From positions 1 to 64,000 of the forward strand of contig JAJQDT010000096.1 of NCBI GenBank assembly GCA_021202075.1: 64,000 nt of DNA, given 5' to 3'. The stretch is from Lachnospiraceae bacterium (GTDB lineage: Bacteria; Bacillota; Clostridia; Lachnospirales; Lachnospiraceae). Positions 16,570-61,235 of this stretch are shown piece after piece (the stretch's first letter is position 1; each line of letters opens with the position of its first letter). The notes under the pieces were generated by a model. It was not told the origin of the DNA. It was given only the letters and a program-made list of their open reading frames with translations, and ran no database searches. Both the position numbers and the translations under genes were made by a program.

Positions 16570-16605
16570 TACTTTTTCCTCCTTGTTTTTGGATTTGTTG
16601 GTGTA

Positions 16606-23300: not shown

Positions 23301-23454
23301 CCTGTCGCCGGTGCGGATTGTTCACGGCAAGGGAAGCGGCGCTCTGCGAAAAGCCGTGCACCAGTACCTGCGCCGCCAGAGCTATATCGCCTCCTTCCGC
23401 CTGGGCGAATTCGGCGAGGGAGACTCCGGCGTCACGATTGCGGAATTAAAATAA
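20332..23454 (+). CDS. mutS2: MutS2 family ATPase/nuclease with three low-complexity insertions
   Basis: A 1040-residue protein, where MutS2 is normally about 780-800. The conserved order is the N-terminal lever/core, Walker A GPNTGGKT (about 404), the ABC signature region DIGDEQSIEQSLSTFSSHM (about 447-465), Walker B LVLFDELGAGTDP (about 595), coiled coil, KOW-like segment and C-terminal Smr domain (about 960-1040, with HGKGSGALR). The family is known for suppressing recombination and for ribosome rescue. Three Ser/Gly/Arg-rich insertions occur, at about 107-180, about 478-590 (between signature and Walker B, containing 60-bp tandem repeats) and about 881-957 (before Smr). All remain in frame. 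The start follows GAAAGGGCTTTCCC. Confidence 0.92.
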   Translation: MNEKALKVLEYHKIIQRLADMAGSQPGKERCLALVPSNDLSEIRRMQQETTDAVSRILRKGRVSFGGLSDIRDSLRRLEIGSSLNAAELLRICDVMETTAHVKSWAKSDGRRSEIPVPARRYTGVDGAQDGLRGGESRKGSSSRITDSRKADSSRPQDHRRGSAQMPDTPGRRRTDENLPADGILEDSLAQMFADLQPMTQVANEIRRCILSEEEISDDASSGLRQVRRQMKSVNERIRSQLASYLNGPARSYLQDGVITQRDGRYCIPVKAEHRGQVPGMIHDQSSSGSTLFVEPIAVVRLNNDLRELEIREQKEIEIVLASLSASVGEHAEALNYDMLLLTELDFIFARAQLSLAYKCSEPDFNTEGRINIKKGRHPLLDPKKVVPVDIRLGDEFTLLVISGPNTGGKTVSLKTVGLFTLLGQSGLHIPALDHSELSVFDEVYADIGDEQSIEQSLSTFSSHMTNIVSFLKAMDEQDAQAWNSMDSANPSMNGRRTSSASRGSASENGTSTDGQNSASGSRNGASKSGTSTEGQNSASGSRNGASKSGTSTDGQNFISGVGNPAAERKPSVRTSLHGRTVSWGSADTRTAAERSLVLFDELGAGTDPTEGAALAIAILSNLHSRGVRTIATTHYSELKVYALSTPGVENGCCEFDVETLRPTYRLLIGVPGKSNAFAISEKLGLPEYIIDEAKEHLTTQDEDFEDVIASLEQSRKTVEQEQEEISRYKQEVEELKQRLSRKEGNLDESRDAILQKAREEARDILRDAKEYADETIRKYNKLGKESDASRKMEQERTKLREKISDNDKHLGLVGSKKPKKELTAKDLHIGDGVRVTTMNLNGTVSTLPDAKGNLFVQMGILRSQVNIKDLEKRNDESLTSFLGQGFLDSSASRNRSGGGTSSNRSGHFSRTSGGSSAGSGRMGRSSNDSAAGSGRPDGRRSNGSGRSGDSGVSSAKSYSIRSEINLIGKTTDEAIAELDKYLDDACLAHLSPVRIVHGKGSGALRKAVHQYLRRQSYIASFRLGEFGEGDSGVTIAELK
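21859..22005. repeat. 60-bp tandem repeat inside mutS2
   Basis: There are two full units and part of a third, starting at 21859, 21919 and 21979 and differing at a few positions. Each encodes GTSTDGQNSASGSRNGASKS or a near copy. The array lies within the insertion between the ABC signature and Walker B. Confidence 0.92.
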
Positions 23455-43349: not shown

Positions 43350-43497
43350 ATAACTGACCAGCTTACGAGTTTGTATTTTTGATCTCTTTACGAGTGACGG
43401 ATTCACACAATTTCTGCTGATTCCGGAGAAAAAGAGAGATGTACCGCTGTATCCGTTCCTGTCATACTTTCCAGAAAAAATGTACTCTCTCATTTTT
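43350..43497 (+). ncRNA. candidate small RNA from the orphan promoter
   Basis: About 145 bases lie between the expected start and a site where GTACTCTCTC is followed by ATTTTTCC. The 3' arm can pair with GAGAGATGTAC some 45 bases upstream, giving a terminator-like end. A 56-codon frame starts at the ATG in that arm (MYRCIRSCHTFQKKCTLSFF) but runs antisense into the peptidase gene, so I do not call it a protein. The RNA call is inference from promoter and end structure only. Confidence 0.3.
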
Positions 43498-43966
43498 CCT
43501 CGCTGATAGATCGTTTTATCCGGTACAAAGCCCGTGTGATCTTTGGACGCACAGGAAGCAGAATCAGCCAGATCCGGACTGCCAGCAGATAAACCGGATG
43601 ACGGACTGAGCAGTAGTTTCCCCTTCGAATAAAACCGGTCAGAATCCCCCGGATCTGGTCATCCCGGATTGGGCCTTCTTCCACGCTTTGATGATCGCCC
43701 ACCAGATAATAGCCTTCCCGCGCACATCGGCAAATCCGGTGAAGCACCAGTATGCCGTCTTCCCGCCGATAGAGAACAACATCGCCCCTCCGCAGGCGCA
43801 GGCTGCCATCTGCCTGAATTATCTTTTTCAGAGGAGCGATGACCGCTTCATCTCGCCCTTCCACAAACATAGGGTACATACTGGTTCCCCGCGGTTTTAA
43901 CTGAATGACCTGCCCTTCGGCAAGAAGCTGTTCGATATCTGCTTTCTGTTTTTCCATATCTGGCAT
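43490..43966 (-). CDS. S26-type signal peptidase-like protein (SipW-like)
   Basis: A 158-residue protein. GTSMYPM places the catalytic Ser at 29 and RRGDVVLYRREDGILVLHRI places a His at about 76 where bacterial SPase I has Lys; the Ser-His pair is that of SipW/ER-type signal peptidases. A hydrophobic segment at about 122-138 (VYLLAVRIWLILLPV) may anchor it. The start at 43966 follows AGGAGATCGT. It is divergent from the PqqD/HprK fusion (96 bp between starts) and lies in the locus with an exporter and two precursor-like proteins, so leader cleavage is a plausible role. Confidence 0.72.
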   Translation of the reverse strand: MPDMEKQKADIEQLLAEGQVIQLKPRGTSMYPMFVEGRDEAVIAPLKKIIQADGSLRLRRGDVVLYRREDGILVLHRICRCAREGYYLVGDHQSVEEGPIRDDQIRGILTGFIRRGNYCSVRHPVYLLAVRIWLILLPVRPKITRALYRIKRSISEEK

Positions 43967-44061
43967 ACGATCTCCTGTTTTTTGCATAATGATATCAATG
44001 TGAAACAAGTCAGGTATCCGTGCCAGCTAAAACAACATCTTATCTGAGGGAGAAGATTATT

Positions 44062-45294
44062 ATGAAGCCTGACAAATGCTGGACACTGCAAACCATAGCC
44101 GGAATCCCTTACATCCTGCCCTTCGGTCAGGCCATCGCCGATCTCAAAAGAGGAATTCTTGTCAATGGAACCGGCGCTTTCCTCTGGGAACAGCTTCAGA
44201 ATGATCCGACCAGGGAGGAGCTCCTGTCAGCGTTCGCGGCGCATTATCAGGCAGCCGAACAGGAATTGCCTCAGTTTAAGAGAGATCTGGACGAATTTCT
44301 GGCGCAGCTGACTGCTCTTGGGATTCTGTCAGCGGAAGCCTGCGCGGCTCCGCCTGTTTCCCCCGCAGATCGCCCGGCAGAAAATCATGAAATTACCGGC
44401 GCCCTCCCCTCACCGCAGGAGCATTTTTCGGAAATCGGCGGTCTCTCGGTGCGTTTTGCGGAAATCGGCGGTCTCTCGGTGCGCCTTGTCGGCCCGGCAT
44501 CTGCCTTTGCGCCGGAATTTGAGCCTTTCTCCAGCCCTCCCCGGAGCAAAACTGACCTGACGGTCGAAATCGTCACGGCGTTTCCCCGCGACAGTTTCGC
44601 GGACGCTCCCTTTCTTATCCGTCATCCGGAGCTGACCGTGCAGGACTGCCGGGACAGATACCTCCTTCATTTTCCGCAGGCGCCGCAGATCCGGGAAGTC
44701 CATCTGACAAAAGACGGGGCAGCGGCGCGGTTTTTCTGTGCTCCGCCCTTTGAAGAACCGCTCGTCACGGATCTTTTTCACGCCATTCGCCTGGCGTATC
44801 TGTATCTGGCGCAAAAGCGCGGAATATTTGCCCTGCACTCCGCTTCTATCCTGTATCAGGGAAAGGCCTGGCTCTTTTCAGGACATTCAGGCGCCGGAAA
44901 GTCCACACACACAAAGATCTGGAATCGCCTGTTTGAGACACCTGTTTTAAATGGAGACCTGAACCTGCTCACCATCCGAAATAAACAGCCCATGGTCTGC
45001 GGCCTTCCCTGGTGCGGCACCTCCGGTATCTCGACAACAGAAGACTATCCGCTCGGCGGAATTATTCTTTTAAAGCAAGCCATGCACAACCTCTGCCTGA
45101 CCCCGGAACCAGATCGGCAGGTGCTGCTTCTTTCACAGCGTTTTATCTCACCGGTATGGACACGCGAACAGCTGGAGATCAATCTCCAATTCGCTCATGC
45201 TCTCACATCTCTCGCACCCATCCGACATCTTAGCTGCACAAAGGAGGATGAGGCTGCCCTTTATATGAAAAAACAGATTGACGCCGGATTCTGA
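44062..45294 (+). CDS. PqqD-like domain fused to an HprK-type kinase
   Basis: A 410-residue protein. Residues about 1-90 (YILPFGQAIADLKRGILVNG, then TGAFLWEQLQNDPTREELLS) match a PqqD-like RiPP recognition element. The C-terminal part (about 255-405) resembles HPr kinase/PEP carboxykinase-like kinases: FALHSASILYQGKAWLFSGH, P-loop SGAGKST at about 275, LNGDLNLLTI and GLPWCGTSG. Such kinases occur in some lasso peptide clusters, where they phosphorylate the precursor. A 30-bp tandem duplication encodes EIGGLSVR twice in the linker. The start at 44062 follows GAGGGAGAAGATTATT. It is the only plus-strand gene of the locus. Confidence 0.8.
   Translation: MKPDKCWTLQTIAGIPYILPFGQAIADLKRGILVNGTGAFLWEQLQNDPTREELLSAFAAHYQAAEQELPQFKRDLDEFLAQLTALGILSAEACAAPPVSPADRPAENHEITGALPSPQEHFSEIGGLSVRFAEIGGLSVRLVGPASAFAPEFEPFSSPPRSKTDLTVEIVTAFPRDSFADAPFLIRHPELTVQDCRDRYLLHFPQAPQIREVHLTKDGAAARFFCAPPFEEPLVTDLFHAIRLAYLYLAQKRGIFALHSASILYQGKAWLFSGHSGAGKSTHTKIWNRLFETPVLNGDLNLLTIRNKQPMVCGLPWCGTSGISTTEDYPLGGIILLKQAMHNLCLTPEPDRQVLLLSQRFISPVWTREQLEINLQFAHALTSLAPIRHLSCTKEDEAALYMKKQIDAGF
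44429..44488. repeat. 30-bp tandem duplication
   Basis: Two units beginning CGGAAATCGGCGGTCTCTCG differ only in the last five bases. They encode EIGGLSVR(F/L) twice in the PqqD/HprK linker. The near identity points to a recent event. Confidence 0.95.
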
Positions 45295-45373
45295 ATCCAT
45301 CTGCTGACAGGCGTAATCCGTCCTCGCCCAGGCAAAAAATCGGTTCAAACAGGAACAAACCGTCCTCGTCCGG

Positions 45374-45402
45374 TAAAAGCTCGAACGGCGCAGCGGCTTT
45401 TA
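45374..45402. terminator. bidirectional terminator-like hairpin
   Basis: TAAAAGC and GCTTTTA close a 15-base loop between the converging kinase (stop 45294) and ABC exporter (stop 45427) genes. The arms give A/T runs on both sides, as in bidirectional terminators. Two copies of CGTCCTCGYCC lie just before it (45319 and 45361). Confidence 0.55.
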
Positions 45403-45426
45403 AGTCGGCACGCGTGCGCGCTACAC

Positions 45427-47388
45427 TTAGAAATCCTTGATCATCCGCTCTACTTCTTCCGCATCCAGCATCTCACACTTCCGGTTCCGGATCGCGTACA
45501 CGCGGTCGCAGATCGTAAGCACGGTAGGCCGGTGCGTCGTCACAATGCAGGTACGCGGATATTCATCACTCATGATGTTGCGCAAAAGCTTTCGCTCAGT
45601 CGCGACGTCCAGCGCAGAGGTCGCCTCGTCCAGCAAAAGGATCGGCGATTTCCGCAAAAGCGCCCTGGCAATGGAAAGCCGCTGCGCCTGCCCTTCGGAA
45701 AACCCGCCGCCGCGTTCCTTGATCTCACTGTAGATCCCATCCGGAAGTTTTTCTACGAAGTCCCACGCACAGGCCATTTTCAGCGCTTCCACAATCTCCT
45801 CATCGGTCGCGTCCTCCTTGACATTGCGCATATTTCCCGCAATCGTGCCGGAGAACATCGTATTTCCCTGCGGCACATAGGAGAAAATCATCCGCGCAGC
45901 CGGGCTCATGGGGATGCAATCCAGAGTCTCTCTGCCCTCTTTTTCGATACAATCCCGCAGCACATGAGCATCCGCACTGACGGATTCGATCTCCGCAGTA
46001 TCCTCGCTGGCGGGTTCATTCTCCGCTGTCTCTTCGCCGGCAGATTTGTTCCCTGCTGTATCATTGCCGACAGGTTCAACCCCCGCTGATTTTTCGCTGA
46101 CAGAGCGCCCTGCCACAGCCGCTCCTCCGCCATACAGTGTCAGGTTTCCATCCTTCACGGGCATCAGCGCAAGCACCAGCCGCAGCATCGTTGTCTTCCC
46201 CTCGCCGGACGGGCCGACCAGCGCCACAATCTCATGCGGTCGGGCATAGAATGTCGCGTCCTCAAATACCTGCGTGCCATTCTGATACGCATAATAAATA
46301 TGCTCGGCATACAGACTGATGCCTTCCGTCCTGTTGCGGTCCATGAAGTCCTGCACCTCCGGCGCGTTGCTGTAATCCTCCCGCGACATCTCCACAATAT
46401 CCATCAGCCTGCCGGCGGATGTCGTCAGCGTGATCGCGCTCGGCACCAGCGAGGTGAGGTTGCTGAGCGCGCCGGTCAGCGTGCCGGAGAGCGACAAAAA
46501 CATCGTCATCGTGCCGTAGCTGATGGCCCCGCTCCAGACCCGGTAAATGCCCCAGCCATAGCTGGCATAAGAGACCACCAGCCCGACCGTCGTCAGAAGC
46601 AGCGATGTCCAGACGGACATCCGCTGGAAGTCCAGCTTCATATCTATGTATTCTTTCTGCAGATCTTTTAAGTGCTGCACATACATCGCGATCAGCCCAA
46701 ACGCCTTGATCGTCTGGATATTTGAAAAGGCCTCCTGATTGAAACCGGACATCTTCGCACCCATGGCCGCGCTGCGCTTGTTGTTATTCACCATACGCCG
46801 CATCAGCCTCCGGGAAAGCAGCAGCGACACCGGCATCCCCATAAACGCAAATACCGCAAATGTCCAGTCATAATAGGTGACCATCGCAAACGCACTGAAA
46901 AACCGGAACACATAAATGATCGCGTTCGGAATAAAGCTCAGCACGCCGCTGGAGATCTGGCTCGCGTCCGAGCTCCACCGCGTCAGCAGGTCACCCGTGT
47001 GATAATTCGTCAGGCTCTCCCAGTCCGTCACCAGAATCTTTTCAAAAATTTCGGATTTGATCTCCGCGTCGACCTTCATACTGATCCATTCCGACGCATA
47101 ATTCGAGATCATACTGACAATCGTATTGCCGATGTTCAACCCGATCATCATGCAAAAGGTCTGCACTACCAGACCGGTCTCGTGCCCGGTGATAATATCC
47201 ACCAGATCGCGCGACACCAGGCTGGAGAGCAGCGACACCACCGTCCCCGTCAGTCCCAGCGCCGTATAAAAAACCATCGGCAGCCAATAGCGCCGCGCAT
47301 AAGAGTAAATCCACTTCGTCTGCGCGATAAAATCCTTCAGGCGCCCTGCCTTAATGCGCCCCCAGTAAAACGCCAGTCGTTCTCTCAT
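45427..47388 (-). CDS. ABC exporter (fused permease and ATPase) with an NBD insertion
   Basis: A 653-residue half transporter of the ABCB/type I exporter kind. Six membrane helices lie in the first 320 residues; the ATPase has Walker A VALVGPSGEGKTTMLR, Q-loop FSYVPQGNTMFSGTI, signature FSEGQAQRLSIARAL and Walker B ILLLDEATSALD. There is no peptidase C39 domain. Between Walker A and the Q-loop there are about 75 extra residues rich in Glu, Ala, Ser and Thr (AGVEPVGNDTAGNKSAGEET..). It lies downstream of the two precursor-like genes on the same strand and is the likely exporter for them, by inference. Confidence 0.87.
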   Translation of the reverse strand: MRERLAFYWGRIKAGRLKDFIAQTKWIYSYARRYWLPMVFYTALGLTGTVVSLLSSLVSRDLVDIITGHETGLVVQTFCMMIGLNIGNTIVSMISNYASEWISMKVDAEIKSEIFEKILVTDWESLTNYHTGDLLTRWSSDASQISSGVLSFIPNAIIYVFRFFSAFAMVTYYDWTFAVFAFMGMPVSLLLSRRLMRRMVNNNKRSAAMGAKMSGFNQEAFSNIQTIKAFGLIAMYVQHLKDLQKEYIDMKLDFQRMSVWTSLLLTTVGLVVSYASYGWGIYRVWSGAISYGTMTMFLSLSGTLTGALSNLTSLVPSAITLTTSAGRLMDIVEMSREDYSNAPEVQDFMDRNRTEGISLYAEHIYYAYQNGTQVFEDATFYARPHEIVALVGPSGEGKTTMLRLVLALMPVKDGNLTLYGGGAAVAGRSVSEKSAGVEPVGNDTAGNKSAGEETAENEPASEDTAEIESVSADAHVLRDCIEKEGRETLDCIPMSPAARMIFSYVPQGNTMFSGTIAGNMRNVKEDATDEEIVEALKMACAWDFVEKLPDGIYSEIKERGGGFSEGQAQRLSIARALLRKSPILLLDEATSALDVATERKLLRNIMSDEYPRTCIVTTHRPTVLTICDRVYAIRNRKCEMLDAEEVERMIKDF

Positions 47389-47427
47389 TTGTTTTCTGCC
47401 CGCCTCATCCTGTCATTGATCAGACAA

Positions 47428-47592
47428 TCACTTCACGGATTCTTTTTCCATTACTTTCCAGATCGTGACGGCTGATCGAAAATATTTATTTCCCCGAATC
47501 AGTGAAGCAATAACCTGGTTTACCCGGCCAGTCATGTCTGCCATATAGTGCTTTTCCGGGACGCAGACAACTGATGTATTGAATAATTTCAT
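47428..47592 (-). pseudogene. N-terminal remnant of an AAA-ATPase-like gene
   Basis: The frame encodes MKLFNTSVVCVPEKHYMADM then TGRVNQVIASLIRGNKYF, matching the conserved start of AAA-ATPase-like (PF09820) proteins, which goes on to a P-loop. Here the similarity ends after NKYF and the frame continues with unrelated sequence to a stop at 47428. Only about 40 of more than 500 expected residues remain. Confidence 0.6.
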
Positions 47593-47799
47593 AAAGTCCT
47601 CTGTCTGAATGCTGTAAAAACAGCAAGCCATTTATATGGATTGAGTATAGCATAAATGATCCTGCAATACCACACTTGCGCTTGTATTTTTCATGAAAAA
47701 GGTTATATATCTTCTTGATAAAGGTGTAAAAGAAGACCATATCATCAAAGTGGCTCTTGAAAAGGCAATTTAAAATTTACGTCCAAGTCCACGTTTCGC

Positions 47800-47973
47800 A
47801 TGGATATACCGGAAAAGATCGAGCAGGAGACCAGAACCCTGCGCCAGATTCCGGATTCATTTAAAAAGATCATCGTCGTGAGAGAGGATAAAAAACCACG
47901 CTATGACGTAAATGGATTCGTCACAATCGGCATCCGCCAGTCTCTGATGGATGAGATGATTTTGTTGGGGTAA
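47800..47973 (+). pseudogene. C-terminal remnant of a DUF4143-type ATPase
   Basis: 57 codons from ATG 47800 read MDIPEKIEQETRTLRQIPDS, then FKKIIVVREDKKPRYDVNGF and VTIGIRQSLMDEMILLG, resembling the C-terminal end of DUF4143 ATP-binding proteins. The frame closes just upstream (TGA near 47763) and no ribosome binding site is seen. A short open stretch just before it (MKKVIYLLDKGVKEDHIIKV at about 47693) may come from another lost gene. Confidence 0.5.
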
Positions 47974-47978
47974 AGTAC

Positions 47979-48045
47979 AAAAAAAGAAAGCCTCTGTCTG
48001 AAGCTTTCCTTTTTCATCTGCCCGCTCCATTCCATGGAGCGGGCA
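47979..48045 (-). terminator. double hairpin terminator after the precursor-like genes
   Basis: On the minus strand the 48063 gene is followed by a perfect 11-bp stem (TGCCCGCTCCA/TGGAGCGGGCA, 48019-48045), then a second stem (GAAAGC/GCTTTC, 47986-48008) and a run of seven T. The second looks like a standard rho-independent terminator, and it separates the precursor genes from the exporter gene. Confidence 0.8.
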
Positions 48046-48062
48046 GGGCATAAATGTGATAT

Positions 48063-48473
48063 TCATGAATCATGCTGGCTGCAGGTCATATTACATACAA
48101 TATATGCATTGGTAACCGCAAGACCCTGATCTGCTTCAACAACCAGATCGCCAAGACCAATATTGTCTGACCCATTATTATGGTAAGCATAGTCGACATA
48201 CAATGTAGCTGTCCCATCCCCGGAAGCAAGCGATCCGTTCGACGATACATAAGTAACTGCCTGATTAAAGGTAATCACCAGCGTCTGCGCTGTGCTGTGG
48301 TGTGTCGCGGAGTGTGTCCCGTTTATCTGAATCCGATAATCACCCCTGCCCGTCTCCGGGGTCTGGTGAATATTGTAAGTCACCGTATAGCAGTCCGTAC
48401 CGCTCGCCGTATACACGCCCTCTGAAATCTCGTCATTTGCCAGAACTACTGGCCTTGCATACCTTTTATTCAT
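48063..48473 (-). CDS. precursor-like secreted peptide candidate 2
   Basis: A 136-residue protein. Its first 25 residues share 13 positions with the next gene upstream: pattern M-x3-Y-x2-P-x2-L-A-x5-E-G-V-Y-T-A-S-G. After SG the sequence is Thr/Ser/Asn-rich and probably beta-structured (ITFNQAVTYVSSNGSLASGD, GTATLYVDYAYHNNG), ending IVCNMTCSQHDS with two Cys. It has no signal peptide or membrane helix. The start at 48473 follows AAAGAGGG. With PqqD-type proteins, a SipW-like peptidase and an exporter nearby, I infer a leader followed by a cargo. I do not recognise the family. Confidence 0.65.
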   Translation of the reverse strand: MNKRYARPVVLANDEISEGVYTASGTDCYTVTYNIHQTPETGRGDYRIQINGTHSATHHSTAQTLVITFNQAVTYVSSNGSLASGDGTATLYVDYAYHNNGSDNIGLGDLVVEADQGLAVTNAYIVCNMTCSQHDS

Positions 48474-48558
48474 TATTGCGCCCTCTTTCTTAAATTTAAA
48501 ATGTATAATCCGCAGATTCTCTGTTTTTTCTCAAAAGCCACGACAATCTCCGATCAAA

Positions 48559-48933
48559 TCAGCTCAATGTCAGACTGTCTCCGGTATAAACTACCTGAAA
48601 TCCTCCTGATGCTGACGTGCCGGTACCGCTGATAATTACCTGGCTGGAACTGCAGGAAACCGATGCCTGACCTGAATTGCTATATATCCAGGATCCACTA
48701 ATGCTCTGCAGACTGCCTCCCGACGCACTCAAGGTAACCGTCCATGTATCCGTAACGCTTCCGGAACTTTCAATCGTCACACTGAACTGGGCTGTACTAG
48801 TAGAATCACCATTTCCCCAGCTTCCAGCTGACGAAACACTATAGCTGGCACTTCCGCTTCCGCTCGCGGTATACACGCCCTCCGCCAGATCATTCTCCGC
48901 CAGGATCAGAGGTTTTATATATGTATCCCTCAT
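48559..48933 (-). CDS. precursor-like secreted peptide candidate 1
   Basis: A 124-residue protein beginning MRDTYIKPLILAENDLAEGV then YTASG, the same leader-like pattern as its neighbour. The remaining 100 residues are dominated by Ser, Gly and Thr (SGSASYSVSSAGSWGNGDST, TWTVTLSASGGSLQSISGSW) and show no clear alignment with the neighbour, so the two differ in cargo but not in leader. One Cys is present. The start at 48933 follows GGAAAGGTGAAAAGAT, and a good promoter lies upstream. It is probably exported and may be modified on Ser/Thr; both are inference. Confidence 0.67.
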   Translation of the reverse strand: MRDTYIKPLILAENDLAEGVYTASGSGSASYSVSSAGSWGNGDSTSTAQFSVTIESSGSVTDTWTVTLSASGGSLQSISGSWIYSNSGQASVSCSSSQVIISGTGTSASGGFQVVYTGDSLTLS

Positions 48934-49009
48934 ATCTTTTCACCTTTCCAATTCTCTGTCCCGCCTTTTCACGCCCGGCAGGAAAATCAACGTTGCAATA
49001 TTTGTAATA

Positions 49010-49038
49010 AATATACGCCAGTTTTGGCCGATTGTAAA
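49010..49038 (-). promoter_or_regulatory. sigma-A promoter of the precursor-like genes
   Basis: On the minus strand TTTACA and TATATT are 17 bases apart, with the -10 box 77 bases before the start at 48933. It gives the two precursor-like genes their own transcript even if the upstream nucleotidyltransferase gene is read from further away. Confidence 0.65.
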
Positions 49039-49116
49039 GGATTTTTCAGCAATTTCGAGACTCAAAATTTTACCAAAATTTCACATTCATTTTTGTGGAC
49101 TTTTTCATGTCCCGGT

Positions 49117-50442
49117 TTACTCGTCAAATATCCGCAGCGCTTCCATCCTGCGGCTGCGTTTCCCTGCTGCTTTTAATATAGAGAGTGTGGAGGTATGCCG
49201 AACTTTGCGGTTGTTGCGCAGAAACCGGAGCAGAGTGAGCGTCCACAGAGCGGGCCAGAGCGGCACGTGCTTCCCCTTTTGGGGATAGTTCAGGTGCATC
49301 TGGTGATGAAATTCCCGGATGTAGTCCGTCAGGCGCGCGCCTTTCATCGCCACCATGCGCTCGGAGTCTGAATGCCCGAATTCTTCGGAATCAAAAATCT
49401 CGCGCAAAAATTGCTCTGCGTGCGCCGCGTCCGGATTCAGAAACGATACATCGGAAGCATCCAGACCAAGATAGTTCACGCAGGCGCCAGTGACCAGGGA
49501 CGCATACCGGCAGAGCCCGTCTTCTCTGAGGATCCCGGTAAGCTCCAGCTTTTCTTTCTCGCTCCACGGCCGCGCAAACAGGACGTACCAGTCACAGAGC
49601 AGTTTTAAACCGAAACCGGCTCTCAGAAAATGCTGCAGCATATGCAAAAGCAAATGCCACGCCTGGTATGGGCGGTCGAGTACGGGAAATTCGACGCCCA
49701 TGATGTCACGCCGGATACAATGCGCCGGGCACTGCCGCATCCGTGTTTTCATGCCGTCATTTCTGGCGGAGTCTTCAAATGGTTCCGCCGGGAGCAGATG
49801 AAGCTCCACCTCAATTCCCTCGGAGGAGACATACGCGTCGTGGTGGACGGAATCCTGTATCTCTGTCAGATGAAACCCGGCTTCTGCCATCATGCGCCGA
49901 AGGTCTTCCCTCTTTGGCGTACCCTCAGGCTGACCCGGATGCTCCCTGCCGGATTTATCAAAGGTACCGTTCAAACGCCCGTCCTCCGGAACTCCCGCGA
50001 CCAGCAGATCCACGTCTCCGGATTTGCGCAGTTCCGGCACAGGATAATCCGCAGCCGCGCTGACGCCCTTTAATACGATCACAGAAACTCCGTGCGTTTC
50101 CAGAAACGTAACCAGATATTTTGTCAGAAACAGCAGATGATACGCCTGCGGCACGGTATGACGGGCGGCTGCTTTGGTTTCCTGCTGAAAGCTTTCCCAT
50201 GCCGCCGCGCTCTCACTGTTTTCTGTCAGTCCCCTGTCCTGTGTCTCTCCGGATTTCCCGCAGGCGACATCGTAAAGCAGCGGCAGCACCGCATGCTTTC
50301 GCGCAGCAACGGACAGCTGCTGCAGCTGCCTCTGATCGATGTTCCAGGGCGATCCAGCAGATTTTTCTGTTGAGGCAGAAAGTGCCTCCGCTAATATCCG
50401 CAAAAGTGCCTTTTCTTCTGATGTCAATTTCTCTTTTTGCAT
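49117..50442 (-). CDS. nucleotidyltransferase family protein (PF14907-like)
   Basis: A 441-residue protein. HGVSVIVLKGVSAAADYPVP followed by ELRKSGDVDLLV is the signature of the NTP_transf_5 (PF14907) family: Lys-Gly, then Arg and the DxD metal site of a DNA polymerase beta-like fold. ALSASTEKSAG and SGREHPGQPEGTPKRE look like extra polar loops. Members are often found in RiPP and surface-polymer clusters next to PqqD proteins. It may transfer a nucleotide or sugar-phosphate to a peptide. The start at 50442 follows GGAGGGAGAGA. Confidence 0.8.
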   Translation of the reverse strand: MQKEKLTSEEKALLRILAEALSASTEKSAGSPWNIDQRQLQQLSVAARKHAVLPLLYDVACGKSGETQDRGLTENSESAAAWESFQQETKAAARHTVPQAYHLLFLTKYLVTFLETHGVSVIVLKGVSAAADYPVPELRKSGDVDLLVAGVPEDGRLNGTFDKSGREHPGQPEGTPKREDLRRMMAEAGFHLTEIQDSVHHDAYVSSEGIEVELHLLPAEPFEDSARNDGMKTRMRQCPAHCIRRDIMGVEFPVLDRPYQAWHLLLHMLQHFLRAGFGLKLLCDWYVLFARPWSEKEKLELTGILREDGLCRYASLVTGACVNYLGLDASDVSFLNPDAAHAEQFLREIFDSEEFGHSDSERMVAMKGARLTDYIREFHHQMHLNYPQKGKHVPLWPALWTLTLLRFLRNNRKVRHTSTLSILKAAGKRSRRMEALRIFDE

Positions 50443-50556
50443 TCTCTCCCTCCACTGTCCCGTCTTTTCTCCTTCCGCTGTCCTCGTCTTTTGGCATCTA
50501 TTTGCCTCGCCAACCGCTATTTTTCCCGAACGCCATTTTTCCCTCGAATCTCCCTT

Positions 50557-52110
50557 TCACAATTTCCTCCGAATGCTATTTTTCCCCCGAATTCTCCCTT
50601 TTACAATCGCTAGAACCTCCCGGAATTCTCCCGTACGGCCATATAACAGCACAAAAAGCAGATTCGGCAAAATGGCCGCGATCAGAAGGCGCAGCAAAAA
50701 CTTCACCAGAATGTTCCCGCCCATCTGAGCGCAAATCCGGTCTGTCACAAACCAGACACCGGCCAGAACAGCCGCGTACTTTGCGTACTTCGCAAAATAA
50801 GAGCGCACCGGTGCTTTCAGACAATGCTTATAGAGCACATATGGTTCTACCCAGAGGGAAGTGGTTACCGTGCTGATAAAGGTTCCCCAGAATACGCCTG
50901 CGGTGCCAAACCGCAATGCCAGCACGATGGATACCGTCAGGTTTACCACTGCTTCGGCGATGGATTTGTAGCGGTCATACCAGAACAGTCCCAGCGAATC
51001 CCGGAAAATCAGCGTGGCCTTCCGCATGCCGGTAATGTAAAAATTCAGGCAGAGTACAAGCACCACTCCCGGCTCAAAGACATAATTCGCCCCAAAGCTG
51101 ATCTCTACAAACAGGCTCAGCAGCTCATACAGGCAGATTGCGGCAAATCCGTAGAGCCATTGTCCGATAAAAAAGGACGTCTCAAAAATCCTCCGTATAT
51201 GCGCTTCATCCTCCATGACGCCGAGATTCCCGACACTGGCGGAAATCCCCTGAAACACCTGATCCAGCACCTGCCGCACGGAACCGATCACCAGATAATA
51301 ATTAGAATACTTCCCCACGCTGCCGAGTCCGACCAATGCCGAAAGCAGGATATTATCGGTGTTATTGACAATCACCACGCCGATTTTGTGCATCAGCATG
51401 GCCTTGACATTCTTTATGATCCCATCTTTTTCCTGCTGACCCAGGGGCGCGATTTCCCGATCTTTCAGGAACGGATACATACGGTCTGCCCGCCGGGAGA
51501 TACTCACATTGCCGCTCACAGTGCAGACTACGGCGGTGATACAGAACAAAAGGAAATTCCCGGTTGCAAGCAGGATTACAATCTGCGCCGCATCTTGAAT
51601 GACAAGGAAAATCGTGTGATACAAGGTCCCGATATACGTCAGCTGATGTGCCTCGATCAGCGTTTTTTTGTAAATCAGCAGATAGGAAAGCACCGAATTC
51701 GCCAGATACAGCAGGTAGATCAGCGTCAGATGCTCCACCTGCGGCCTGTCTTTCATGATCACATCCATAAATGGGACGACCAGGAGTCCGCCAATCAGCA
51801 CAATCAGCGCCACGATCCGGTAAAACCAGCAGTACAGGCGCATGATGGATTTCTGCTTTTCCGTCTCTTCCTCCGCGACCGGCTTATAGAGTGCATACGT
51901 AATCGCGGTGCCGACCCCCAGCTCTGAGAGTGCAAGCACATTCAGAATATCCGTAAACAGGCCATTGATACCGACGTAGCTCTCGCTCAGGACATGGGTA
52001 AACACCACCCGCGTCACAAAGCCCATCAGGATGGCTGTCATCCGGGAGGCGACGGCGACCGTCGTATTCTTTACCGAATATTCTGTTCGGGTGCGTATCT
52101 GATCTGCCAT
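50557..52110 (-). CDS. Wzx-type polysaccharide flippase (MOP superfamily)
   Basis: A 517-residue membrane protein with about 12-14 hydrophobic segments. The start at 52110 (MADQIRTRTEYSVKNTTVAV) follows GGAGCGGAGGA; 43 codons upstream are open but have no site and would add a hydrophilic tail. FTHVLSESYVGINGLFTDIL and LSELGVGTAITYALYKPVAE are typical of the polysaccharide transport family. It would flip lipid-linked glycans across the membrane. It lies between the nucleotidyltransferase and Stealth genes. Confidence 0.88.
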   Translation of the reverse strand: MADQIRTRTEYSVKNTTVAVASRMTAILMGFVTRVVFTHVLSESYVGINGLFTDILNVLALSELGVGTAITYALYKPVAEEETEKQKSIMRLYCWFYRIVALIVLIGGLLVVPFMDVIMKDRPQVEHLTLIYLLYLANSVLSYLLIYKKTLIEAHQLTYIGTLYHTIFLVIQDAAQIVILLATGNFLLFCITAVVCTVSGNVSISRRADRMYPFLKDREIAPLGQQEKDGIIKNVKAMLMHKIGVVIVNNTDNILLSALVGLGSVGKYSNYYLVIGSVRQVLDQVFQGISASVGNLGVMEDEAHIRRIFETSFFIGQWLYGFAAICLYELLSLFVEISFGANYVFEPGVVLVLCLNFYITGMRKATLIFRDSLGLFWYDRYKSIAEAVVNLTVSIVLALRFGTAGVFWGTFISTVTTSLWVEPYVLYKHCLKAPVRSYFAKYAKYAAVLAGVWFVTDRICAQMGGNILVKFLLRLLIAAILPNLLFVLLYGRTGEFREVLAIVKGRIRGKNSIRRKL

Positions 52111-52242
52111 TCCTCCGCTCCTGTCATCCTGACCTCTTCCCGCCGGGCAGCCTGTCATCCGTATTCTCTTCTGTCTTAACACATATCTCTGCAGCCAGCA
52201 GCATTTATCTGCAGTCCGCATACGGCAGGCTATGGCCATCTG

Positions 52243-53241
52243 CTACCGTTCGAACGCGGATTTTTCCGGTAGAATCTTCTCAAAAGACTGCCGGATTTCC
52301 GCTTTCGCGGCCACAAAGTCGATTGCATGATTCGCGTCGTTGATGCAGACGCATTTCGTTTTCTGCTTTTCAATCGTGCGGCAAAGCTTCTGATTGTCAT
52401 CACTCACATTATAATAGCGGAGATCCCGCAGCACGTTTTTCGGATTAAAATCCCCGCTCAGCTTCTGCCACTCCCGGACCAGATAAGGGCCGACATCCTC
52501 ATTAGAGCGAAAACGGTGCGTGGAAAATTCACTCAGGTAATCCCCCTCTTTCTGCCAGATGGTTTCAAAAGTGGATTTGCAGAAGGGGAACGGTCCGTGG
52601 GGCGTGTAAAAGCCCGTATAAAGTGGAAACGCCAGCTCCAGCAGATTGTAAAAAAAGTAAAGCGGCGGATATCCAATATGAAAATAATTTCCGGGATGCC
52701 GCCTCACATTCTGCCGCTTGTCAAAATACTTCGACAAGATCAGTGAAATATTAAGAAACTCGTGCGACATACTCGGATTGGCGGGGTTAGCCACCACCGG
52801 CTGAAACGCCAGCAGGTCGCAGGGGCGTCCGCCAACAAAATAATCCTCCGGCGTAATCGGCCCGGTCAGGAACATATCGTCGTTAAAATAGACAAAATTC
52901 TCACTTAAATCCCTGATCCGGTGAAAATGCATCTCTATCACACGGCTGTTAAATGTCGGAAGATACTCCTCCGGAATATAATCCCGGTGATTGACCACCT
53001 TAAGCTTCGGATGCTCTGTGTTCAGCCATCCGGGCAGATGACCCCAGGTGACAAAGTAAATCTTCCCGGCCCAGGGTGCAAATTTTTCCACTCCGCGGAA
53101 CCAGTAAGGCAAAAGTCCCCAGTCCCGGTAGCGCTCCGGGCGCGCGTCCGCGTCTTTGGCTGGGGCATAACACGCTTTTTCCCGCTGCCATACCGGGTCA
53201 TCTCCATCTACCCAGGTAATCACAAAATCTATCGCACCCAT
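52243..53241 (-). CDS. Stealth-family sugar-phosphate transferase
   Basis: A 332-residue protein. Conserved region 1 is IDFVITWVDGDDPVWQREK, region 2 RDWGLLPYWFRGVEKFAPWA, then KIYFVTWGHLPGWL and FVYFNDDMFLTGPI, with later blocks RHPGNYFHIGYPPLY and STHRFRSNEDVGPYL. Stealth proteins transfer hexose-1-phosphate to glycans, as in capsule synthesis. The start at 53241 (MGAIDFVITWVDG) is ten bases after AGGAGG. It lies 132 bp upstream of the flippase gene in the same direction. Confidence 0.92.
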   Translation of the reverse strand: MGAIDFVITWVDGDDPVWQREKACYAPAKDADARPERYRDWGLLPYWFRGVEKFAPWAGKIYFVTWGHLPGWLNTEHPKLKVVNHRDYIPEEYLPTFNSRVIEMHFHRIRDLSENFVYFNDDMFLTGPITPEDYFVGGRPCDLLAFQPVVANPANPSMSHEFLNISLILSKYFDKRQNVRRHPGNYFHIGYPPLYFFYNLLELAFPLYTGFYTPHGPFPFCKSTFETIWQKEGDYLSEFSTHRFRSNEDVGPYLVREWQKLSGDFNPKNVLRDLRYYNVSDDNQKLCRTIEKQKTKCVCINDANHAIDFVAAKAEIRQSFEKILPEKSAFER

Positions 53242-53404
53242 GCCCACAAAGCCTCCTGCATATTCTGTTCTTCTCATAAAACGCTGCTATATAATACATT
53301 TCAGGGTTAGAATCTGTTGCAAAATAACTCGCACATCTTGCACCGCCTGACGCGAGAATTGCATTCTGTAAAAGTCTCGACGCAGCCCGTTTTGACGCGC
53401 TACA

Positions 53405-53725
53405 TCAAACCAGAACCCCCTGCCTCTGCAATTCTGCCAAAAACAAGCCCACATCTTCTCTGGCCTGCTCTACCGGAATTTCATATGAATCACTGAGCTT
53501 TTCCGCGATCTTGTCCAGGTCCAGTCCCCGCCGCCGCATATTCCAGATCGTGGCTCCCATCTCATTCATCGGCAACGGTTTCACATATGGCATCCCGGAC
53601 TGCTCCATATCAAGCAGCCAGTAAATGCCCGCGGCATGGCGCATCTGGTAGCGATTGCCGGTCAGTGCATTAGTCGGTGGGAAATCCGGAGTTTTATTCA
53701 TATCATGGTTCTTTGAATCTGTCAT
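53405..53725 (-). CDS. PqqD family protein (stand-alone RiPP recognition element)
   Basis: A 106-residue protein. After a polar N-terminus, YWLLDMEQSGMPYVKPLPMN, EMGATIWNMRRRGLDLDKIA and EKLSDSYEIPVEQAREDVGL match the PqqD winged-helix domain that binds leader peptides. The start at 53725 follows AGAGGATAAAAGA. It is the most upstream minus-strand gene of the locus. Together with the PqqD part of the kinase fusion it makes two leader-binding modules for two precursor-like proteins. Confidence 0.82.
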   Translation of the reverse strand: MTDSKNHDMNKTPDFPPTNALTGNRYQMRHAAGIYWLLDMEQSGMPYVKPLPMNEMGATIWNMRRRGLDLDKIAEKLSDSYEIPVEQAREDVGLFLAELQRQGVLV

Positions 53726-53834
53726 TCTTTTATCCTCTGCAGCCTGCGAAAGCCTTTCCCAAAAGTCCTTTTTGTGCTATGATAACACAGTATGGGAAAA
53801 ATATCACCCCGAGTCTTTCAAGGAGTTACCTACT

Positions 53835-55313
53835 ATGAAAAAGCGGTCAAAACGGATTTTTATCATACTCTTTCCGGCTATCTTTATTCTGGCAGCAGCA
53901 GCCGATCTCTGCCTTTTTCTTTATCAGCAGCGGTATCTTCCAGTATCATGGTCTTCAGAAAGCTTCTCAGAAACGGACGCCGTCCTTGATAACCCTTATC
54001 GCGGCTTTTACCAGATCCACGCATATTCCCTGAATGAGGAAAACGGGTCTCTTGCGGAAACTCTGGAAAAACACATCGAGGAAAATGAAGCTCTGGCTCT
54101 CGTTCTGGTCGAAATCAATCTGAATAACTATACCGAAAGTGCACTTTCTGATAACGCTCTTGCGCAGGTTAACACCATCCTGTCCGCCTGGGCCGACAGC
54201 GGTCGGCAGATCATACTCCGCTTTCTTTATGACTGGGACGGCAACGGGCGCACCAGTGAACCCTCCTCGCTCGGCCAGATTCTGGAGCATATGGAACAGG
54301 TCGCGGAAATTGTCAACCGCTACGCGGACTCCGTCCATATCCTGCAGGGAGTTTTCATTGGCAGTTATGGGGAAATGAACGAATCCGCTTATCTGGGGGA
54401 GGAGGATATGACCACACTGATCATGCGTCTTGCCGAGCTGACTGATCCTTCCATCTACCTCGCCGTGCGCACGCCGGCACAGTGGCGCACCGTCACAGGC
54501 CTGACCTCTCTGCCGGAATCCTTTCCCGCATCTGACGGTTCCCTGCTCTCCCGGCTCGGCCTCTACAATGACGGCATCTTAGGCTCCGAGACGGACCTCG
54601 GCACCTACGGCGACACCTCTCGGGCGGGCTCTGCCACACCATCTAATAAGGGAACCCGTGCAGAAGAGCTTGCTTTTCAGGACGAACTCTGCCGCTATGT
54701 ACCAAATGGCGGCGAGGTTGTCAGCGACTATACACTCGGCGATCTTGACGCGGCTATCGGCACTCTTTCCCAAATGCACATCTCCTACCTGAATGAAGGA
54801 TATGATACCGCCGTGCTGGATATCTGGAAAGAAACCACCTATACGGGTGATGACGTTTTCTATGGCTGCAGCGGATACGATTACATCAGCGCCCACCTCG
54901 GCTACCGCTATATCCTGACCGGAACCGGTCTGGAATTCGGCACCTGGTTCGATGAGGAAGCCATCCTTTCCTTTACGATTCAGAATGTCGGCTTCGCCTC
55001 GAGTACACGCGACTTTGAAGCCATGATCACACTGCAGAAAACCGATGGCAGCGATGCTGCATCTGATCACCCAGATTCAGATGATGTTACAACCGACACT
55101 TCCACTGCTGATTTCGGCCTTTGTTCCCTGAGCTCCGGAGAAAGCACAGACGGCACTGTCCACATCCCTGTCCGCGACCTGTCAGAAGGCACCTATACCG
55201 CTTATCTGACGCTGACAGACCCGGTCACCGGAGAGGAGATCTCGCTTGCGAGCAGCCCGGAAAAAACGGAATATGGATATCCGCTCGGAACACTCACAAT
55301 CGGCAGCGAATAG
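53835..55313 (+). CDS. membrane-anchored DUF4874/DUF4832 protein
   Basis: A 492-residue protein. The start at 53835 follows AAGGAGTTACCTACT; a longer frame back to 53655 is open but overlaps the pqqD-like gene. One membrane helix at about 8-30 is followed by an extracellular part: LDNPYRGFYQIHAYSL and GVFIGSYGEMNESAYL in the DUF4874 region, then YDYISAHLGYRYILT in the DUF4832 region, and a beta-rich tail. The fold resembles a (beta/alpha)8 glycosidase, but no activity is proven. A paralogue lies at 55.4-57.0 kb on the other strand. Confidence 0.8.
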   Translation: MKKRSKRIFIILFPAIFILAAAADLCLFLYQQRYLPVSWSSESFSETDAVLDNPYRGFYQIHAYSLNEENGSLAETLEKHIEENEALALVLVEINLNNYTESALSDNALAQVNTILSAWADSGRQIILRFLYDWDGNGRTSEPSSLGQILEHMEQVAEIVNRYADSVHILQGVFIGSYGEMNESAYLGEEDMTTLIMRLAELTDPSIYLAVRTPAQWRTVTGLTSLPESFPASDGSLLSRLGLYNDGILGSETDLGTYGDTSRAGSATPSNKGTRAEELAFQDELCRYVPNGGEVVSDYTLGDLDAAIGTLSQMHISYLNEGYDTAVLDIWKETTYTGDDVFYGCSGYDYISAHLGYRYILTGTGLEFGTWFDEEAILSFTIQNVGFASSTRDFEAMITLQKTDGSDAASDHPDSDDVTTDTSTADFGLCSLSSGESTDGTVHIPVRDLSEGTYTAYLTLTDPVTGEEISLASSPEKTEYGYPLGTLTIGSE

Positions 55314-55390: not shown

Positions 55391-57007
55391 TCATACTACC
55401 GGCCGCCATCCGGACACGATGCCGATGGGCAGCAGGTTTTCGGCATTCTGATTTGCAAACCAGATGGTCTCTCCGTCTTCCTGCCGCAGTCTCAGAAAAA
55501 GTTCTTCTTTCCACGGAATCCCATCTTTGCCATTGACCGCCTCGCCGTGGCACTCTGCGGTAATGCAGAATGTCTGCCCCGCATCCCATTCCCACGGATT
55601 TGTATCCAGCGGCTGCCGCACTTCACTGCCGTCAGCTCCTCTCGCGATCAAAGACAGGCGCGCGGCACGAAACAGATTGCCAAACCCAACGTTACGCCCA
55701 CAAATTTCCAGGTGCAGCGTGAGACTGCCGCCACTGGTTTCCCTTTCTTTCCGCACTTTTCCGAAATGGGGCACCCAGTTCTGGGAGGATGACATCCGCT
55801 CCCCGCGGAATCGCCCGGTCACTTTCTCTATGACAAACCGATACCCCAGATGCAGGCCAATATAGTCATAAAGGCAGCATCCCTGGTACGCGGTATCTTT
55901 TCCCCGGTAACGCAGCTGCTTCCATCTTGAAATCACCGTCCCAGAATAGACCCGGTTCAGGTACGTCAGGTGCATCCGGCGCATCGTATTTAAAACATCA
56001 TCCGCCGTAAAATCATGGCGGCTGCTATCTGATCGGATATCTGAACGGTTATTTGGCGTCCCGGCATCTTCTCTGTCTTCTCTGTCTTCTCTATCTTCTC
56101 TGTCTTTCGTGTTCCTTCCGTATATCCGTCCGCGTCCGCGATCTTCCGGCGTTTCCCGGTCTATGGGGAGTCTCTCCTGGATAAAATCCCATCCGCCCGG
56201 CGCCTCCCCGCCGTTCGGCACCCGTGTGCACGCCTCGTCCAGGTAAGAAAGCTCCAGAGATGAACTCCACGGCCGATTCTCAACCAAAGCACCCTGTGCG
56301 TTTCTGGAATTGATCTCGCCGTACCGGCCTTCGGCAAATGTCCCAAGATGGGATGCGGAAGCAAACAGGCCGTCGTCGTACAGGCCCACCGCCAAAGCAG
56401 AACACGCCGGTGCAGCCTGAAGAATCCGTTTCTGCACCGGTTTTCTTACAGACAGGAAACAGGCGCCGCCCGTCGCCTCCCAGAGCGTTTTCGCGAGGAT
56501 GCAGATGTTCTCATCAGACAGGTAGCGGGAAGAGTGCATCTCCCCCCAGCTGCCTACCAGAAGCCCCTGAAGCGTAAGAATGTACGGGGAGTATTCCGCA
56601 AACAGCGGCCCCAGCTGGCGGATGTGGCGCAGAACACGCGCAATCTCGTCCGGCTCCCGCTCCATTCCTTTTCCTTCCCGGTCGTACACCGTGCGGACAA
56701 TCATCTGCTTTGCGTGCGAAGAAAAGAAATCGAAAATCTGCCGGATATTGCCCAGTTCCCGCTCTGTCAGATCATCCGTGCGGCAGCAGCCAATATCCAG
56801 AATCACCTGCGCCAGACGCTCCCGCGTATCCAGACACCATTTCAGTTCTTCCTCATTGATCCTTTCCCGCACATCAAAGCTGTACATCTGATACCAGCCG
56901 CGACCCGGATTTGGCAATTCGGCAGCCGTCTCCGCCAGCGCGGCGGGATGAAAATGACACTTTCCACGACGAAACATTCTTTCCCTCATTCCCTGCTGCT
57001 TTTCCAC
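55391..57007 (-). CDS. DUF4874/DUF4832 protein without signal sequence
   Basis: A 538-residue paralogue of the preceding protein: LPNPGRGWYQMYSFDVRERI, GLLVGSWGEMHSSRYLSD, CTRVPNGGEAPGG and YDYIGLHLGYRFVIEK align with it. It has no N-terminal membrane segment. An insertion at about 285-330 contains DREDREDREDRED coded by a 9-bp tandem repeat. It is the last gene of the Pel-like operon, 135 bp after the GT2 gene. It may process or bind the polysaccharide, but the lack of a signal peptide argues for a cytoplasmic place. Confidence 0.77.
   Translation of the reverse strand: MEKQQGMRERMFRRGKCHFHPAALAETAAELPNPGRGWYQMYSFDVRERINEEELKWCLDTRERLAQVILDIGCCRTDDLTERELGNIRQIFDFFSSHAKQMIVRTVYDREGKGMEREPDEIARVLRHIRQLGPLFAEYSPYILTLQGLLVGSWGEMHSSRYLSDENICILAKTLWEATGGACFLSVRKPVQKRILQAAPACSALAVGLYDDGLFASASHLGTFAEGRYGEINSRNAQGALVENRPWSSSLELSYLDEACTRVPNGGEAPGGWDFIQERLPIDRETPEDRGRGRIYGRNTKDREDREDREDREDAGTPNNRSDIRSDSSRHDFTADDVLNTMRRMHLTYLNRVYSGTVISRWKQLRYRGKDTAYQGCCLYDYIGLHLGYRFVIEKVTGRFRGERMSSSQNWVPHFGKVRKERETSGGSLTLHLEICGRNVGFGNLFRAARLSLIARGADGSEVRQPLDTNPWEWDAGQTFCITAECHGEAVNGKDGIPWKEELFLRLRQEDGETIWFANQNAENLLPIGIVSGWRPVV
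56067..56102. repeat. 9-bp tandem repeat, four units
   Basis: TCTTCTCTG occurs four times, with one changed base in the third unit, and codes for Asp-Arg-Glu repeats on the minus strand inside the DUF4832 gene. Confidence 0.9.
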
Positions 57008-61160: not shown

Positions 61161-61235
61161 GCTACCCCTCTTCTCTTCTCGCACAGAGCCACAGCCTCCA
61201 TGCATTCCATTCCCGGACTTATATCCCTTGTATCA

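Follow-up and report, generated by a model that had tools for sequence, protein, structure and literature searches.

With moderate confidence we propose that the window, a stretch of 64,000 nucleotides from a Lachnospiraceae bacterium, encodes a Lachnospiraceae branch of the leader-guided modification known from 'linear polyphosphorylated peptides' (LPP), in which the leader is carried by whole small domains that are exported and associated with a Pel-type matrix. Our direct observations are the set of genes, their leader and modular cores, the co-occurrence with an RRE-kinase fusion and the linkage to PelG. LPP were described by Popov et al. (2026) from the lpp cluster of Paenibacillus alginolyticus DSM5050 (PMC13381572), the sole paper found in our literature search on LPP; its main text contains neither 'Lachnospir' nor 'Clostridi'. 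Searches combining PqqD with HPr kinase, exopolysaccharide and signal peptidase returned no paper.

A gene set related to the LPP cluster

Profile searches recovered all genes that a sequence-only reading of the window had named (Table 1). That reading took the system to be possibly undescribed, a view that no longer stands for the core gene set, which has already been described as LPP in the main text of PMC13381572. As far as that text goes, the two share an S26 SipW-like peptidase with Ser-His-Asp, a kinase (HprK-like in LPP, putatively HprK-related here), an RRE, a PF14907-type NTP transferase, an MsbA-like exporter, a YxxPxV leader, variable cores and a polysaccharide-locus setting (PMC13381572). 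The window variant differs in that RRE and kinase form a single fusion protein, the leader ends in EGVY[A/T]ASG instead of FETxxS, the cores span 55-147 aa in 12 sequence clusters, one of them CBM_2-like, and the locus is linked to a Pel-type operon and was found here in one bacterial family only. The LPP cleavage motif Px9Fx[T/A] (FETxxS) is absent from the window proteins, which have E where F is expected, and we therefore class the system as an LPP variant, not a member.

Table 1. Genes of the window that bear on the analysis (numbers after profile names are E-values unless given in bits).
Feature	Position	Strand	Remarks
S26 (SipW/LppS-like) leader peptidase	43490..44008	-	TTG start, true start uncertain
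PqqD (RRE) + HprK-related P-loop kinase fusion	44020..45294	+	likely start ATG 44062
MsbA-like ABC exporter without peptidase domain	45427..47388	-	PF00664 6.9e-36, PF00005 1.1e-19
Leader protein 1, 136 aa	48063..48473	-	leader 1-25 MNKRYARPVVLANDEISEGVYTASG, then cluster 0 core
Leader protein 2, 124 aa	48559..48933	-	leader 1-25 MRDTYIKPLILAENDLAEGVYTASG, then cluster 2 core
PF14907 nucleotidyltransferase (LppN/PsmN-like)	49117..50442	-	PF14907 1.4e-25
Wzx-like flippase, glycan neighbour	50557..52239	-	PF01943 (Polysacc_synt) 8.3e-07, 29.1 bits against a cut-off of 28.2
Stealth-family protein, glycan neighbour	52243..53277	-	PF11380 1.1e-42
Discrete PqqD/RRE, 106 aa	53405..53725	-	PF05402 2.5e-11
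DUF4874-DUF4832 protein (Pel-type accessory)	53655..55313	+	likely start near 53835; PF16173 6.2e-51, PF16116 2.5e-49
Second DUF4874-DUF4832 protein	55391..57007	-	PF16173 6.8e-43, PF16116 4.2e-30
PelG, exopolysaccharide exporter	59718..61205	-	PF16933 2e-151
PelF-like glycosyltransferase (DUF3492 + GT4)	61236..62708	-	PF11997 2.7e-77

The PqqD domain of the fusion matches PF05402 (1.9e-10), and against PDB sequences the RRE gave weak matches to the 'PqqD family' chains 9x8z and 9x90 (E 0.037-0.15). H273, K294 and D313 of the kinase are invariant in 14/14 rows of a smaller alignment and 94/94 rows of a larger one. The earlier label 'HprK-type' calls for caution: NCBIfam HprK_rel_A matches 25/25 fusion proteins at E<=1, all below cut-off (best 6.6e-06, the window's 0.17), whereas the PF07475 (Hpr_kinase_C) profile does not match the fusion, and sequence support for the label is weak. 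HPr-rel-A / SynChlorMet cassettes (NCBIfam TIGR04352/04353/04249) likewise combine PqqD with an HprK-related kinase and differ in that every window or fusion match to them falls below the curated cut-offs.

The putative catalytic triad of the S26 peptidase, Ser43-His90-Asp105, is conserved in 78/78 aligned sequences; the protein has no Pfam match, and its NCBIfam matches (TIGR02228 8.9e-06, SipW model 1e-03) are each below cut-off. In the peptidase tree as built the fusion rows are not one clade (2 changes), although they are one in 65% of the bootstrap trees, so that the tree does not decide between the two; 13 of the 25 inner branches are open, and the canonical LPP pair sits on a very long branch. 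The exporter consists of ABC_membrane and ABC_tran (NCBIfam MsbA_rel 7.1e-68, below cut-off), a scan for a peptidase domain having found none. Residues K125 G126 and G142 D143 D145 of the PF14907 protein are invariant in 42 aligned rows. The Stealth protein was counted as such with CR1-CR3 above cut-off and CR4 below (23.2 vs 27.4 bits); Stealth is a family of hexose-1-phosphate transferases.

One leader on many cores

The two small proteins of the window share their start, as had been noticed earlier; in a search of their own genome they align from residue 2 to 103 at 35% identity (E 5.9e-05). The leader, YxxPx[VIL]...EGV[YF][AT]ASG, precedes small proteins in 77 of 93 related loci, a set of 13 loci plus the 80 best of the 196 relatives that were confirmed in the genome collection, with some loci present twice. 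Within this set the pattern matches 112 of the relatives' 11,402 ORFs and 0.3 per set of residue-shuffled copies, and it is therefore beyond chance. With the window's two included there are 114 leader ORFs, or 106 distinct proteins once identical sequences are removed. The search pattern imposed Y/F, P, E, G, [VIA], [YFW] and one [SATCG] at E+5 or E+6; it did not impose the following: a P-to-E gap of 9 (112/114 ORFs), Ser at E+6 (105/106 distinct proteins) and Gly at E+7 (104/106). A/G/S stands at E+5 in 106/106. Y5 and P8 are invariant in a 16-row alignment of leader proteins (16/16), which thus carry the YxxPx[V/L/I..] leader of LPP. A literature search on the leader motif (EGVYAASG / EGVYTASG and fragments) found no paper.

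Against a close relative, dN/dS is 0.14 for leader protein 1 and 0.10 for leader protein 2. CBM_2 is matched by 7 of the 8 members of cluster 2, to which leader protein 2 of the window belongs, and scores above cut-off in the two cluster-2 cargoes whose scores were inspected; the window's own leader protein 2 gave no match to the profile. The largest cargo cluster has no good match to any family: CBM_4_9 is not supported as an assignment (just 2 of 35 scanned members, best 0.027), and a search against PDB sequences returned nothing at E<=5. Sec secretion of the window's small proteins was rejected, no hydrophobic stretch being present (best 19-residue Kyte-Doolittle means 0.89 and 0.81). One small protein searched in each of the plasmid and phage record collections had no match.

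Distribution and linkage to a Pel-type operon

Among 250 genomes of the same family, the fusion (E<1e-50) occurs in 14 and the leader (E<=1e-6) in 14, with both in 13 (Fisher p 1e-19). Four more leader matches appear at E<=0.01, of which G146 was counted and the weaker G213, G047 and G143 were not included in the 14. A weak kinase match (6e-15) in G213, whose contig also carries PelG and DUF4832, suggests that this genome may have a divergent version of the system. Of 97 leader starts, 90 lie no more than 6 kb from the fusion. The prediction of conserved synteny was borne out for the fusion, peptidase, exporter and leader proteins. Other genes are found less often within +-10 kb in the 47 full-flank loci: PF14907 (21/47), Stealth (16/47) and discrete PqqD (5/47). 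PF14907 is present in 14/14 fusion genomes, in 10 of them within 20 kb of the fusion on the same contig. By profile, a discrete RRE is found in 10 of the 93 loci (13 plus the best 80 of 196 relatives), the remaining loci having the fused RRE. Stealth and the flippase, which the sequence-only reading had listed with the system, look like glycan-locus neighbours more than core components. Among culturable gut commensals, the locus is also carried by Anaerobutyricum hallii, Blautia luti and Roseburia porci; of these three, R. porci alone showed Pel genes in the flanks that were covered.

In the Pel-type region of the window PelG and the DUF3492-GT4 gene are clear, and PelA and PelE were not identified. 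DUF3492 we take to be the mark of PelF. Downstream lie genes for a DUF2194 protein and for an epimerase/DUF4118 protein, the match to DUF4118 being below cut-off. The machinery genes often adjoin biofilm polysaccharide genes. The Gram-positive Pel operon has the same PelG and PelF-like genes, with DUF4832 accessory genes as in clostridia, and its extended PelD resembles the downstream epimerase-bearing protein (L055:8526-10703); CotH and a polyphosphate polymerase are its named accessories, and the text available to us of the paper describing it has no mention of PqqD, leader proteins or such a kinase (Whitfield et al. 2020, PMC7112168).

The PelG linkage of the RRE-kinase fusion is new here. 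PelG is encoded by 13 of the 14 fusion genomes and 29 of the 236 others (p 2e-10), and lies within 20 kb of the fusion on one contig in 11 of the 14, at 9-19 kb in the genomes measured; a strong match to the fusion is lacking in 29 of the 42 genomes with PelG. These counts, together with the CBM_2-like cargoes and domain-sized cores, argue against a chance vicinity of leader and glycan genes, with cargoes that are modified and exported like LPP but act as signals or antagonistic peptides and have no link to Pel. We consider that alternative unlikely, while noting that just 7 of the 47 full-flank loci have any Pel gene in the 10 kb to either side, that the cores are as highly diverse as expected of conflict proteins, and that LPPs are, according to the main text of their description, patchy in distribution and thought to have moved horizontally (PMC13381572).

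Proposed mechanism and its alternatives

For the Lachnospiraceae variant we infer every biochemical step, the export and the role in the matrix: the cargoes would be leader-guided, phosphorylated (perhaps glycosylated) at the conserved Ser, exported and put in a Pel-type matrix. The YxxP of the leader would bind the kinase-fused PqqD/RRE and place the start of the cargo at the active site, where the kinase would phosphorylate the near-invariant Ser after EGVY[A/T][A/G/S]; the PF14907 protein may put a sugar on the Ser phosphate. The S26 peptidase, assisted by the fused or discrete RRE, would cleave near this Ser, most likely after [A/T] in V-[YF]-[A/T]-A-S-G so that Ser becomes +2 of the product, or alternatively between YAA and SG or after ASG. 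The MsbA-like ABC protein would export the product without a Sec signal. Outside the cell the cargoes, which include a CBM_2-like cluster, would associate with the exopolysaccharide of the adjoining Pel-type operon.

In Paenibacillus, by the main text of the LPP paper, the RRE binds the YxxP leader, LppK phosphorylates S3 of the core, a SipW-like peptidase assisted by the RRE cuts off the leader after phosphorylation, and LppN was inactive in the heterologous host, a point against our reading (PMC13381572). The sequence-only reading had supposed export of leader-guided cargoes after addition of a phosphate or sugar-phosphate; the LPP relatives do this in part, and the reading is to that extent supported. 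Two relatives, L156 and L157, encode a canonical LPP precursor (QFETLVS) together with a kinase and an S26 peptidase belonging to it. Next to this cassette stands a second one, whose kinase aligns with the fusion kinase; outside the family, no kinase and S26 peptidase were seen that come closer than those of the second cassette. In the leaders of the nearest non-family cassettes (..QFENVFTKC.., ..QFESVFADC..) Cys takes the place of the conserved Ser, which therefore may serve cleavage, not phosphorylation.

That replacement speaks for export and cleavage only, with the kinase acting elsewhere or regulating the peptidase, Ser-Gly as the peptidase site and the cargoes as unmodified matrix proteins. 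Signal peptidases follow a small-residue rule, which A[S]G fits. Against this rather improbable alternative, the RRE-kinase fusion, present in 93/93 loci by construction as it was the query, ties leader binding to phosphorylation, and phosphorylation of the core S3 by LppK is the precedent already cited. At the other extreme, the leader-guided phosphorylation we favor could extend to protein-polysaccharide conjugation, a speculative and doubtful possibility in which a RiPP-type leader would mark carbohydrate-binding domains, the fused RRE-kinase would phosphorylate an N-terminal Ser, and a sugar-phosphate bridge from the exported protein to the Pel-type matrix or a phosphoglycan would be built by PF14907, joined by Stealth in loci that have it.

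Paeninodin and pseudomycoidin lasso peptides resemble the window in having a PqqD-type RRE along with a kinase and a PF14907-type enzyme that modify a Ser of the precursor, for which PsmK/PsmN of pseudomycoidin are the precedent in the part of the literature at hand (PMC9266682); the window cargoes differ by having no lasso B2 near the fusion, much larger cores and no conserved C-terminal Ser, a paeninodin-type Ser being rejected as the last residue is S in 8 of 106 distinct cargoes and otherwise variable. Although PqqD, kinase and PF14907 do occur together in paeninodin-like lasso loci, we reject as very improbable a lasso or other cyclized RiPP locus with its cyclase elsewhere: as the sequence-only reading had held, no macrolactam synthetase/lasso, radical SAM, YcaO or LanC family is matched by any of the 18 proteins scanned from 42.1 to 64.0 kb, a single fusion genome of the 14, G096, has B2 (PF13471) above cut-off, on a contig other than the fusion's, with E<=0.001 reached in three genomes in all, and cores of ~110 aa are unsuited to a lasso.

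In one family, gut bacteria appear to apply a recently described type of peptide-modifying machinery to entire folded proteins of small size, some resembling sugar-binding domains. RiPP leader machinery is familiar from short peptides; here the same leader precedes unrelated domain-sized proteins, one group of them CBM_2-like, and if our reading is true, the leader would be a general tag to modify and export folded proteins. A role of LPP in biofilm formation was called 'tempting' as a suggestion by the authors in their main text (PMC13381572), and the tight Pel-type linkage in culturable gut commensals makes this idea directly testable.

Gene content and constant core of the locus

The sequence-only reading had proposed a peptide-modification and export system beside surface glycan enzymes, and the genes it claimed are all present: an S26 peptidase, a fusion of PqqD (RRE) with an HprK-related P-loop kinase (hereafter the fusion), an ABC exporter, two small leader proteins, PF14907, a flippase, a Stealth protein and a discrete PqqD. 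The adjoining run encodes two DUF4874-DUF4832 proteins, glycosyltransferases, PelG (E 2e-151, domain scan), a DUF3492-GT4 protein which we take to be PelF-like, and a DUF2194 protein. Past the window end, the same contig encodes an 856-aa protein without a match in a Pfam scan and one of 725 aa whose N-terminal part is an epimerase domain. The latter resembles the extended PelD of Whitfield et al., in whose account DUF4832 genes are contiguous with clostridial pel loci (PMC7112168).

Coordinates of features in the window and in related loci (L) or same-family genomes (G; C, contig)
Feature	Location	Coordinates	Strand
Genes named by the sequence-only reading	window	43490-53725	
PqqD-kinase fusion	window	44020-45294	+
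Small leader proteins	window	48063-48473; 48559-48933	-
Ordinary upstream genes (GH38 mannosidase, sugar-binding protein, sensor histidine kinase, MutS2)	window	9576-12431; 15313-16614; 16784-18583; 20332-23454	
Leader-like start without YxxP, adjoining fusion	L045 (G096)	8681-9169	
AAA-ATPase_like and Sortase domains in a single ORF, 3' of Pel region	L055	11317-12495	
Small YxxP-leader proteins ending F[N/S/T/G]S	L029; L031; L032; L033	2328-2567; 2394-2660; 2431-2700; 809-1099	
Leader proteins remote from fusion	G022:C55; G029:C51; G034:C75; G135:C87	15132; 23339; 1892; 15616 and 16152	

Of the 47 loci for which 20 kb or more of sequence was available, 45 encode the exporter, 42 the peptidase and 42 a leader protein; the flippase (27), PF14907 (21), Stealth (16), any of PelF, PelG or DUF2194 (7) and the discrete PqqD (5) follow. 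These counts define the core as fusion, peptidase, exporter and leader proteins. The peptidase triad is intact in 78/78 aligned sequences, and kinase residues H273, K294 and D313 are present in all 94 aligned rows. In sequence terms, the kinase shows a distant relationship to HprK-related kinases and gave no match to the Hpr_kinase_C model.

Leader proteins and their cores

Leader proteins were sought in 93 loci (13 plus the best 80 of 196 confirmed relatives) and the window, using a pattern that fixed Y/F, P, E, G, [VIA] and [YFW] in advance and required neither a set P-to-E gap nor a small residue, Ser or Gly at the fifth, sixth or seventh residue after the Glu, respectively (E+5 to E+7). 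It returned 114 ORFs (106 distinct) in 77 loci and the window, compared with 0.3 matches per 11,402 shuffled ORFs. The gap is 9 in 112 of the 114 ORFs; among distinct proteins, E+5 is a small residue in 106/106, E+6 is Ser in 105 and E+7 is Gly in 104.

BLAST sorts the cores, which span 55-147 aa (median 111), into 12 clusters, of sizes 68, 18, 8, 3 and 2 plus seven singletons. Profile comparison firmly united two halves of the largest cluster, joined the two-member cluster to it less firmly (probability 78) and left the remainder separate. A family search with the largest cluster gave no good match. In cluster 2, to which the window's second small protein belongs, 7/8 members match Pfam CBM_2 at E ≤ 1, above cut-off in both members whose scores were inspected; the window's own protein has no CBM_2 match at that threshold. 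Other same-family loci with stand-alone HprK-like kinases (L029, L031, L032, L033) encode small YxxP-leader proteins that end in F[N/S/T/G]S, a separate precursor class.

Co-occurrence across genomes and linkage to Pel

The fusion profile matched 60 of 250 same-family genomes at E ≤ 1e-10, many through stand-alone kinases, and 14 at E < 1e-50, the window's genome among them. Run independently, a 24-residue leader profile also matched 14 (E ≤ 1e-6), and 13 genomes are common to both stringent sets (Fisher p 1e-19). The two exceptions are G146, 68% complete, with leaders and no strong fusion, and G096, with a fusion and a leader lacking YxxP (MSEFKSADLIALDINDTAEGIYAGSG). On another contig of G096, a lasso-type B2 adjoins PF14907. 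Among 299 genomes drawn across the phylum, the leader profile gave a strong match in none but the genome of the window; weak matches came from two others (0.006 and 0.008), one match being the first half of a canonical precursor of linear polyphosphorylated peptides (LPP). The fusion profile matched six other genomes of this draw (E ≤ 1e-15), with frames of 239-312 aa, too short for a fused RRE.

Some leader proteins sit on other contigs or 28-37 kb from the fusion, as if scattered cargoes were perhaps served by one machine. Two Lachnospiraceae-type loci (L104, L117) lie in a MAG labelled Candidatus Gastranaerophilales, which is probably mis-binned.

PelG occurs in 42/250 genomes: 13/14 fusion genomes versus 29/236 others (p 2e-10). 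DUF4832 is in 13/14 versus 31/236 and PF14907 in 14/14 versus 66/236; because the genomes share ancestry, the p values exaggerate independence. PelG lies 8.9-19.0 kb from the fusion on one contig in 11/14 fusion genomes and on a different contig in two; a search of G096, which also lacks DUF4832, found none. The binomial estimate for 20-kb linkage presumes one randomly placed PelG and is indicative only.

Relation to linear polyphosphorylated peptides

The LPP gene set, as summarized in Popov et al. (2026, PMC13381572), comprises a SipW-like peptidase, an RRE, an HprK-like kinase, an NTP transferase and an MsbA-like exporter, with precursors of 35-200 aa bearing YxxPxVLxHQxIxFETxxS. When Paenibacillus alginolyticus genes were expressed in B. 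subtilis, the kinase gave core Ser3 several phosphates and the peptidase, assisted by the RRE, cleaved after FET; the NTP transferase had no detectable effect in the experiments summarized there. In a related lasso system, outlined in PMC9266682, PsmN adds hexose to the phosphate. The discrete PqqD, where present, often adjoins the peptidase gene (e.g., L037, L077, L079, L085, L088, L118, L130), which fits the published role of LppB, the LPP RRE, in presenting the leader to the peptidase LppS; in the window the two are not adjacent.

Two Bacillota genomes carry a canonical LPP cassette (..EIQFETLVSC..) plus a second one (..AQFENVFTKC..). Outside the family, no closer relatives of the window's kinase and peptidase were seen than those in this second cassette. 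Alignment of ENVFT/ESVFA with EGVYA/EGVYT suggests a cut after [A/T], which would place Ser at +2. Ser is less well supported as the phosphate acceptor, since those relatives have Cys at this position. Because the window system lacks the LPP motif Px9Fx[T/A], we class it as a variant of the LPP kind and not as a strict member. The best account, which we favor slightly on balance, is one in which the leader would guide small domains through phosphorylation, cleavage and export, and these domains may then act in the exopolysaccharide matrix.
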